Positions 11,495-15,748 of a stretch of 64,000 bases of DNA are shown piece after piece; position 1 is the stretch's first letter; the number at the start of each line of letters is the position of its first letter. The notes under the pieces are model-generated. The model saw nothing but the letters and a program-made list of their open reading frames with translations, ran no database searches and was not told where the DNA came from. Position numbers and translations under genes: made by a program. The stretch spans positions 80,440 to 144,439 of the forward strand of contig NZ_JAVFJK010000010.1 in assembly GCF_030908215.1 (NCBI RefSeq), written 5' to 3'. This DNA is from Sinomonas sp. ASV486 (lineage in GTDB: Bacteria; Actinomycetota; Actinomycetes; Actinomycetales; Micrococcaceae).

Positions 11495-14020
<2,526 letters not shown>

Positions 14021-14072
14021 CGTGCTTCTCTCCACTGAAATCCCGCCCTCCGGCATCCTGCTCCTGACACAC

Positions 14073-14095
14073 AAAAGCCCCTCACACGGAGGGGC
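14073..14095 (-). terminator. Attenuator terminator hairpin in the leuS leader
   Basis: On the minus strand GCCCCTC-CGTGT-GAGGGGC is followed at once by TTTTGTGTG. This is a 7-bp G+C stem with a U run, i.e. an intrinsic terminator. It ends about 17 bases before ATG 14056 and so sits in the leuS 5' leader rather than at the end of glpK, which has its own hairpin at 14203-14221. Confidence 0.75.
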
Positions 14096-14096
14096 G

Positions 14097-14131
14097 GCCG
14101 CTTGCTGACCGGAGACCCGGCGGCAAGCGGC
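14097..14131 (-). promoter_or_regulatory. Second leader hairpin (pause/1:2 hairpin) of the leuS leader
   Basis: GCCGCTTGC (minus 14131-14123) pairs with GCAAGCGGC (14105-14097), with an inner CCGG/CCGG pair. The 5' arm begins at the stop codon of the leader peptide, so a ribosome stalled at the Leu codons would cover it. A strong competing antiterminator pairing was not evident by eye. Confidence 0.55.
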
Positions 14132-14157
14132 TATCGAAGGAGGAGGATGCCACGCAT
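14131..14157 (-). CDS. Leucine-rich leader peptide MRGILLLR of leuS
   Basis: A minus-strand ORF reads Met-Arg-Gly-Ile-Leu-Leu-Leu-Arg-stop, with three consecutive Leu codons (CTC CTC CTT) immediately before Arg-stop. It lies 75-110 bases upstream of leuS and is followed by two hairpins, the second a terminator with a U run. A TACCAT hexamer (14165-14170) ends 7 bases before this ATG, so the leader mRNA may be leaderless. ATG 14166 in the same frame would give [11 protein letters not shown]. The order is that of ribosome-mediated transcription attenuation. The peptide is too short for ordinary ORF calling. Confidence 0.7.
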
Positions 14158-14164
14158 AGCCTTC

Positions 14165-14170
14165 ATGGTA
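14165..14170 (-). promoter_or_regulatory. Putative -10 element of the leuS leader transcript
   Basis: The minus-strand hexamer TACCAT fits the TANNNT pattern and is separated by 7 bases from the leader-peptide ATG 14157. No clear -35 is visible. Confidence 0.45.
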
Positions 14171-14230: not shown

Positions 14231-15748
14231 CTACTTCACGTCGGCGTCGACCCAGTCCATCGACTTGGTGACGGCCTTCTTCCAAAGCCGCATCTGACGA
14301 TCGCGTTCAGTGCCGTCCAACTGCGGGCTCCAGCGCCTGTCCTCACCCCAGTTGGCAGAGCACTCGCCGAGGTCCTTCCAGAAGCCCACGGCCAGGCCAG
14401 CCGCGTAGGCGGCGCCGAGGGCCGTGGTCTCGACGACCTTGGGCCGCACCACGTCGACGCCGAGGATGTCGGCCTGGAACTGCATGAGGGCGTCGTTGGC
14501 GACCATGCCGCCGTCGACCTTGAGCTCGGCGAGCGGGACGCCCGAGTCCGCGTTGACGGCGTCGAGCACCTCGCGCGTCTGGAACGCGGTCGCCTCGAGA
14601 GCGGCACGCGCGATGTGGCCCTTGTTCACGTAGCGCGTGAGGCCGACGATCGCTCCGCGGGCGTCGGCGCGCCAATAGGGCGCGAACAGGCCTGAGAAGG
14701 CCGGGACGATGTAGACGCCGCCATTGTCCTCGACGGACTTCGCAAGCGTCTCCACCTCCGGCGCGCTCGAGATCATGCCGAGGTTGTCGCGCAGCCACTG
14801 GATGAGCGAGCCCGTGACCGCGATGGAGCCCTCGAGTGCGTAGTGCGGCTTCGCGTCACCGAGCTTGTACCCGACCGTGGTCAGGAGCCCGTTCTTCGAG
14901 TGGACGATCTCCTCCCCCGTGTTGAAGATGAGGAAGCAGCCCGTCCCGTAGGTGTTCTTGGCCTCGCCCGCGTCGAACGCCGCCTGACCGAACGTCGCGG
15001 CCTGCTGGTCGCCAAGGATGCCTGCGACAGGAACCTCGCGCAGCAGCTGGGAGGTGTGGACCGTGCCATACGTCTCGGAGGAGGACTTGATGGCGGGCAT
15101 CATCGAGGCCGGGACCCCGAACGCGTCGAGGATCGACTGGTCCCACGCGAGGGTCTCGAGGTCCATGAACATCGTGCGCGACGCATTGGTCACGTCGGTG
15201 GCATGGACGCCGCCGTCGGTTCCTCCCGTGAGGTTCCACAGGACCCATGCATCGGTGTTGCCGAAGAGTAGGTCTCCCGCCTCCGCCTTGGCCCGCGCAC
15301 CGTCCACGTTGTCGAGGATCCACTTGATCTTCGTCCCCGAGAAGTACGTCGCGAGCGGCAGGCCAACCTTCTGCTTGAAGCGCTCCACGCCGCCGTCCTT
15401 GGCGAGCTCGTCGACGATCGACTGCGTGCGGGTGTCCTGCCAGACGATCGCGTTGTACACCGGCTCGCCGGTGTTCTTGTCCCAGACGACCGCAGTCTCG
15501 CGCTGGTTGGTGATGCCGACCGCCGCGATGTCGTGCCGGGTCAGGTTTGCCTTGGACAACGCCTGGCCGATGACCTCGCGGGTGTTGTCCCAGATCTCCT
15601 TGGGGTTGTGCTCGACCCACCCCGCCTGCGGGAAGATCTGCTCGTGCTCGAGCTGGCCGGTCGAGACGATGGACCCGGAGTGGTCGAACACGATGGCGCG
15701 CGTGCTCGTGGTGCCCTGGTCGATGGCGATGACGTACTGCTCTGACAT
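14231..15748 (-). CDS. glpK: Glycerol kinase
   Basis: Phosphorylates glycerol to sn-glycerol 3-phosphate with ATP. The 505-residue length is exactly that of the FGGY-family GlpK. The phosphate loop DQGTTSTR is at residues 10-17, [11 protein letters not shown] is near 80, and the C-terminal half carries [11 protein letters not shown] and [11 protein letters not shown] 15748 lies 8 bases after AGGAG; ATG 15754 is too close to it. The reading frame stays open upstream through glpF, but that extension is not coding. It is the last gene of glpD-glpF-glpK. Confidence 0.97.

Follow-up and report, generated by a model that had tools for sequence, protein, structure and literature searches.

A conserved leucine-codon leader upstream of leuS in Sinomonas and related actinobacteria: a candidate attenuator lacking a strong antiterminator pairing

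Does the short region between glpK and leuS in Sinomonas sp. ASV486 make leuS respond to leucyl-tRNA, and by what kind of switch could it do so? The region is read on the minus strand of a 64,000-nucleotide stretch of DNA, referred to here as the window. The initial annotation had described an 8-codon ORF in which CTC CTC CTT precedes Arg and a stop codon, a hairpin whose 5' arm begins at that stop codon, a 7-bp terminator stem with TTTT ahead of leuS, and a -10 hexamer 7 bases before the ATG. We found all of these parts in place:

14165..14170, minus strand: -10 box TACCAT of the putative leader promoter, with no clear -35
14131..14157, minus strand: leader ORF ATG CGT GGC ATC CTC CTC CTT CGA TAG, putatively leaderless, peptide MRGILLLR
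14140..14145, minus strand: Leu5 and Leu6 codons CTC CTC, common in relatives yet dispensable there
14137..14139, minus strand: Leu7 codon CTT, the proposed control codon, 8 nt upstream of the first base of H1
14097..14131, minus strand: hairpin H1, from fold and covariation, whose outer stem GCCGC/GCGGC begins at the G of the stop codon
14077..14095, minus strand: hairpin T, a predicted intrinsic terminator of 7 bp (fold and terminator scan), conserved as GCCCCT..AGGGGC
14067..14076, minus strand: terminator tail TTTTGTGTGT, including TTTT at 14073-14076
11495..14020, minus strand: leuS, leucyl-tRNA synthetase (TIGR00396 leuS_bact, 956 bits against a cut-off of 548)
14231..15730, minus strand: glpK, glycerol kinase, the upstream gene, outside the element (TIGR01311, 743 bits against a cut-off of 590)

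The best named match of the window LeuS is that of Sinomonas atrocyanea (92%), in a comparison from which the records nearest to its own genome were possibly excluded. The leuS start is the GTG at 14020, which recurs in relatives, with an ATG at 14056 as a possible alternative. The -10 box and the leader ATG are 7 nt apart and H1 and T are separated by 1 base. The fold of the 88-nt window leader is more stable than those of its dinucleotide shuffles (z -3.5, with 1 in 200 as good), and a terminator scan reported 1 site in it, against a mean of 0.2 in shuffles. A promoter scan with an E. coli consensus found none. A further in-frame ATG, upstream of the leader ORF start, overlaps the -10 box; conservation among relatives points to the second ATG, at 14157, as the start of the leader. 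Searches with Rfam gave no T-box or other curated RNA family between 9000 and 19000 of the window at E <= 1, and no match at gathering scores in 16 loci from relatives.

We collected 150 leuS loci and scanned their upstream regions for leader ORFs, using a score that favoured LLL, a length of 8, ATG and a -10 box. Leader ORFs were found at 78 of the 150 loci, and 74 of them were distinct; one (L118) was removed for N in its sequence, leaving 73. The homologous ORFs are mostly 6-12 codons long. A typical leader consists of a -10 box, 6-7 nt, ATG NNN NNN NNN CTN CTN CTT NNN TAG CCGC ... GCGGC N GCCCCT ... AGGGGC and TTTTGTGTGT. An alignment of 52 leaders (A1) was folded with RNAalifold, which recovered both H1 and T. 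The covariance model used for wider searches, R1, has columns for CTT and for the -10 box, which biases its matches toward those features. R1 has a single match in its own genome and matches all 14 genomes of the genus, this one included. At E <= 0.01 it matches 80 of 148 relatives, with the neighbouring gene checked for part of these, and in two genomes (G061 and G067) the matches lie far from the leuS positions.

Across the phylum, R1 matched 29 of 396 genomes. The 22 best loci of that scan (L151-L172, at E <= 2e-9), among them the one of the window's own genome, each lie before a LeuS homologue, while weaker matches lie upstream of 2-isopropylmalate synthase (leuA; L173, L174, L176, L177 and L178) or of acetolactate synthase (ilvB; L179 and L180). 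The wider set came to 131 matches. No match at E <= 0.1 was found in the Kocuria, Nesterenkonia and Rothia loci searched, and many other genomes searched in the family and the order were without an R1 match. Closely related genomes are numerous in the sets, and some species are represented by two entries, so none of these counts is made of independent cases. With the counts read in that light, the ORF and both hairpins have been kept together upstream of leuS, and by comparison of the loci this conservation far exceeds chance. We found no publication on a Micrococcaceae leuS leader by title or abstract, subscription papers aside.

Two observations on the distribution may be added. Among L151-L172, one and the same leader precedes two very different types of LeuS, the Streptomyces type being about 40-43% identical to that of the window over the aligned part. 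Within the genus, the leader L008 (genome G010, minus strand 2516-2615) has the start codon ATT and replacements of Leu6 and Leu7, with H1 and T intact; by its sequence this is a natural decay of the ORF.

Eight-codon leaders make up 65 of the 73, and these 65 were selected for LL with codon choice ignored in the selection. Codon 5 is CTC, CTT, CTG or CTA in 60 and codon 6 is CTG, CTC, CTT or TTG in 63; by contrast, different amino acids are encoded at codons 2-4 and 8 across the set. Of the 65 ORFs, 64 end in TAG. A TANNNT motif ends 6-7 nt upstream of the start codon in 65/65, a count to be read with the fact that selection favoured a -10 box. On this comparative evidence the leader ORF is under coding constraint and is probably translated. 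The initial annotation had also suggested that the peptide is translated from a leaderless mRNA; the constant spacing between -10 and ATG supports this, as does the published Streptomyces counterpart (PMC8079986).

The initial annotation had pointed to three Leu codons. All three are present, but the set of three is not the essential part: only the last, CUU or CUA, is near-invariant in place and in codon. At codon 7, 61 of the 8-codon leaders have CTT and the other 4 CTA, although CTT accounts for 5.9% and CTA for 0.7% of the Leu codons (1272 in all) counted over 29 ORFs of the window. We then read the same position in the 131 matches of the wider set. Eight had an unreadable leaderless ORF or H1 and were dropped (L008, L148, L172, L174, L175, L177, L178 and L179), leaving 123 readable leaders. 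Three more (L069, L107 and L133) were also dropped, with zero Leu codons counted before the folded H1, so that 120 remained: 118 before leuS and two before leuA (L173 and L176). The last Leu codon before H1 is CTT in 103 of these, CTA in 13, CTC in 3 (L036, L038 and L176) and CTG in 1 (L016). It lies 8 nt from H1 in 94 of the 120 and 7 nt in 11, and the distance is kept where the stop codon sits further downstream, as in the Streptomyces-type peptide MRAVRLLLSEPR.

Six Glutamicibacter-type leaders (L039, L111, L113, L114, L117 and L122) have a lone Leu codon, CTA, at codon 7; their H1 and terminator sequences differ and the layout is unchanged. In these six H1 starts 11 nt after the Leu codon, a spacing at which a ribosome would cover just the first 1-2 bases of H1. 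Other departures are L107, with CTA at codon 7 and CTC at codon 8, L133, with a 4-codon ORF without Leu, and L123, with Pro at codon 7. Taken together, the leaders suggest that a single rare Leu codon, the last, seems to be the decisive one.

H1 is conserved by its pairing. In A1 the structure composed of H1 and T has 94.6% of cells paired (91.2% for H1 alone). Cells changed on both sides number 68, of which 62 are in H1, against 20.1 in shuffles, with 0 of 500 shuffles as high; the structure behind these values was derived from A1, the alignment tested. Slid versions of the structure gave at most 39 double-changed cells. Double-sided changes occur in 6 of the 9 pairs of H1, and T is conserved mostly as sequence. 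Thus, by the alignment, H1 covaries. The length of H1 ranges from 18 to 59 nt, and its gap to T is 0-1 nt in 66 of 71 leaders and 0-2 nt in 118 of 120. Two of the 73 leaders (L033 and L107) were left out of the counts of H1 and T pairing, of the gap and of the sequestration described below, which gives 71. Ribosome-mediated leucine attenuation of leuS, as first proposed, gains good comparative support from the alignment of leaders from relatives: the unit of ORF, H1 and T, the synonymous Leu codons and the covariation of H1.

A hairpin-stabilised RNA polymerase pause is expected about 11 nt past the hairpin base. A pyrimidine-G step lies 11 nt 3' of H1 in 35 of 71 leaders, whereas each other spacing between 7 and 16 nt shows it in 3-22 (window region 14077-14096). 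This is suggestive of a pause signal, although it is confounded with the conserved loop of T.

If the leader is an attenuator, is there an alternative pairing that could keep T from forming? None of good strength had been seen by eye in the window, and the same holds across the family. We took out the ribosome region and measured how strongly the upstream RNA holds the 5' arm of T before the 3' arm exists. The controls, seven E. coli attenuators, gave -8.4 to -15.8 kcal/mol, 7/7 past -8. The leuS leaders (71 of 73) had a median of -2.0 and a maximum of -6.5 kcal/mol, with 0/71 at or below -8, and the wider set (120 of 131) a median of -1.7 and a maximum of -7.0 kcal/mol, again with 0/120 at or below -8. 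In these comparisons the controls were given the best of all control codons, whereas the leuS runs placed the ribosome at the last Leu codon only; T was the second hairpin of the fold in the run of 71 and the last hairpin in the run of 120. Three of the seven controls (trpL, pheL and pheM) scored identically with the ribosome stalled or gone, so the test detects the presence of an antiterminator and not switching. A first automatic run, which tried all Leu codons up to the last, had placed 12 of 71 leaders at or below -8 kcal/mol (median -2.5, artefacts included); these 12 were rejected as artefacts in which the arm included the 3' arm of H1 or sat inside H1.

An ensemble measure was also tried. 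The probability of T had a median of 0.98 with or without the ribosome region in 67 of the 73 leaders, the other 6 giving no T. By this measure T was lost in one of the seven known attenuators (pheL) and in 3 of the 67 leuS leaders (L002, L006 and L062); because only one of seven known attenuators lost T, the measure was judged uninformative and replaced by the sequestration test. T folds equally with and without the ribosome region, which leaves the last step of the mechanism proposed below without computed support. Our modelling suggests that the leuS leaders lack an alternative pairing of antiterminator strength. The layout had been equated with known attenuation of amino-acid genes; the Leu-codon leader peptide and the terminator of that layout are present, but a classical antiterminator of the trp type was not found in the leaders measured.

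These results bear on the alternative that survives best, a classical trp-type switch. With the ribosome stalled, the H1 3' arm would be able to pair with the T 5' arm, giving an antiterminator that is merely weak and kinetic. Streptomyces leuS leaders are described by Seliverstov et al. as classical attenuators with antiterminator hairpins (PMC1262725). In our leaders with a short H1, a hairpin of the GAG.GG/CC.CUC type can form first (L012 -6.0, L013 -5.5 and L009 -3.9 kcal/mol), and small values may matter, since for an antiterminator mutation of C. glutamicum ilvBNC the effective stabilisation was estimated at -1.5 against -6.8 kcal/mol calculated for the hairpin (PMC11857589). Against this stand the sequestration values, which reach -8 kcal/mol in every control and in no leader of either set, and the alternative pairings of the T arms with H1 or the leader, which show no advantage over shuffled sequences (mean z 0.18 to 0.59). 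Moreover, H1 abuts T, so the facing arms are unable to pair with each other. We therefore consider a classical switch unlikely, if still worth keeping in mind.

The reading we prefer, with a probability of about 0.6, is a ribosome-mediated transcription attenuator that would make leuS respond to leucyl-tRNA by way of the H1 base being held open. The transcript would begin with the A of the leader AUG, or very close to it, with a ribosome initiating directly on the leaderless 8-codon ORF. When leucyl-tRNA is plentiful, the ribosome would pass Leu7, stop at UAG and leave; H1 would then form with T beside it, and RNA polymerase would halt before leuS. When leucyl-tRNA is scarce, the ribosome would wait with the rare Leu7 CUU in its A site. 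The leading edge of a ribosome lies at the first base of the A site plus 12 nt. With the A site on codon 7 the edge falls at the last base of CCGC, and with codons 5 or 6 there most or all of H1 is free. The edge of the stalled ribosome would thus just cover GCCGC, the 5' strand of the H1 base, and keep the base open. With no antiterminator available, we propose that H1 helps T and that a blocked H1 gives read-through: an open H1 would mean less termination at T and transcription of leuS, which is the least certain step. The help may consist of H1 stacking on T, or of H1 acting as a pause hairpin for RNA polymerase. The direction of control would be that already suggested for this locus, low leucyl-tRNA raising leuS transcription. 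Counting against this reading are L008, L133 and L123, the 11-nt spacing of the one-codon leaders, the four leaders whose last Leu codon is CTC or CTG, and the lack of an R1 match in many genomes of the family and order.

We would put forward more tentatively, as a possibility we hold at somewhat less than even, that this is a one-codon attenuator without an antiterminator, in which a lone rare Leu codon sits one footprint before a helper hairpin that abuts the terminator, and that it may be a general actinobacterial design distinct from the four-segment trp model. The suggestion of generality comes from the similar grammar (CUU codon, 1-2 codons, hairpin, adjoining terminator) before leuA and ilvB. 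Leaderless leader peptides are widespread in Actinobacteria, and to our knowledge little has been established on how they switch transcription. More than 100 natural variants, drawn from the 131 matches, mainly keep one codon, its distance to H1 and the contact between H1 and T, and with an element of about 85 nt the need for any antiterminator becomes testable. A result from S. coelicolor, where leader codon mutations were without effect on the regulation of ilvB (cited in PMC1262725), calls for caution in reading leaders by analogy.

A parked ribosome could also act without any role for the H1 pairing. In pyrBI-type coupling, a parked ribosome acts on the terminator near RNA polymerase. By direct steric action of this kind the ribosome would hinder the folding of T, and H1 would merely set the distance from stop codon to terminator. 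In E. coli, termination was about 90% with a stop codon 28 bp ahead of the terminator and less than 10% once the stop codon had been shifted to 5 bp; repression of the terminator by the ribosome was gone beyond 27 nt (PMC4824070). The 18-59 nt spanned by H1 can be compared with those stop-to-terminator distances. However, codon 7 places the ribosome at a greater distance from T than the stop codon does, and the base-pair covariation of H1 exceeds what a spacer needs. Direct steric action is thus improbable in comparison with the open-base attenuator.

Control at the level of translation is less probable still. Here the Leu-codon run would pair with the purine stretch before leuS and hide its ribosome site, much as in the LEU element, where the Shine-Dalgarno box of leuA is paired with a Leu run (PMC1262725). 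In the window, GGCAUCCUCCUCCU of the leader ORF is able to pair strongly with AGGAGCAGGAUGCC at 14065-14052, and the latter would be the ribosome site if leuS started at the ATG at 14056. But the GTG start, found again in relatives, is 32-45 nt downstream of the AGGAGCAGGAUGCC stretch, and pairing between the ORF and the leuS 5' region has a mean z of -0.51 and -0.42 over the 73 leaders, with -0.59 and -0.29 for the window. The mean z in leaders of the genus Sinomonas is -0.26 (n = 13). As a conserved feature this pairing, sought in the 90 nt after the terminator, was rejected with z near that of shuffles. Least plausible of all is a plain glpK terminator with a chance ORF, leuS being served by another promoter: glpK does end just upstream of the element, at 14231, yet in 72 of the 131 element loci (6 of them before leuA or ilvB) a glpK C-terminus is absent from the sequence fetched, often only about 1-2.5 kb upstream. 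Among the leuS loci searched, 10 have glpK but gave no match to the element. The -10 box and ORF, which lie downstream of glpK and ahead of the hairpins, are conserved together with these hairpins.

How does the proposed leuS attenuator compare with systems already described? The closest is the Streptomyces leuS leader, for which an attenuator was predicted in 2005 (PMC1262725), and which was reported from S. lividans in 2021 as leuL2, a leaderless ORF followed by a hairpin and uridines (PMC8079986). R1 matches 11 large genomes of one family at E 3.4e-13 to 1.3e-11 (L154-L159, L161 and L163-L166), where the peptide is MRAVRLLLSEPR or its variants MRAVRLLLSGPR and MRAVRLLLTEPR, and MRAVRLLLSEPR is the leuL2 peptide reported for S. 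lividans (PMC8079986). On sequence grounds, the window element and the Streptomyces leuS leader are one and the same. Both share the position before leuS, a Leu run ending in CTT, a similar distance to H1 and a T adjoining H1. In contrast, the Streptomyces ORF has 12 codons and runs into the H1 arm, whereas that of the window has 8 and ends at H1, and the LeuS downstream is of the other type noted above. An antiterminator has been described for the Streptomyces leader (PMC1262725), whereas the MRAVRLLL Streptomyces-type leaders gave 0 to -1.4 kcal/mol in our sequestration test.

The Corynebacterium ilvBNC leader (ilvB-II motif) is comparable, with a start 1 nt from the 5' end, branched-chain amino acid codons, a conserved CUU control codon and a terminator (PMC11857589, PMC10272879). 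It differs in having three overlapping alternative hairpins and a mutationally tested antiterminator, and in its gene and codons, as these sources describe it. The actinobacterial LEU element is also a Leu-codon leader ORF before a leucine gene, leuA (PMC1262725), but it has a pseudoknot and pairing with the Shine-Dalgarno sequence, and such pairing is unsupported for the leuS leader.

The weaker matches of R1 offer comparisons of their own. Before leuA (L173, L174, L176, L177 and L178, about 1501-1619 in each), we observed leader ORFs that contain Leu codons; a hairpin sits at the stop codon or immediately past it and is adjoined by a terminator, a layout unlike the published pseudoknot LEU element. 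The leaders before ilvB (L180:1501-1626 and L179:1501-1614) have a similar grammar; in L180, GTA CTT ACC AAG is followed by a hairpin and a terminator, a sequence reminiscent of C. glutamicum ilvBNC, where CUU and GUA are control codons.

The E. coli pheM-pheST operon is alike in being a tRNA synthetase operon attenuated by its own amino acid, but unlike the leuS leaders it has an antiterminator of -14.7 kcal/mol in the same test. The pheM leader is Shine-Dalgarno-initiated. Mycobacterial leaderless poly-Cys uORFs are said to sense an amino acid and, like the window leader, belong to Actinobacteria. Upstream of the mycobacterial cys operons, however, conserved terminator hairpins were looked for and not found (PMC1262725). 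Set against these systems, the layout of the leuS attenuator was already known from Streptomyces; the refinements suggested by sequence comparison are that it appears to work without a classical antiterminator and that the emphasis seems to fall on a single Leu codon.
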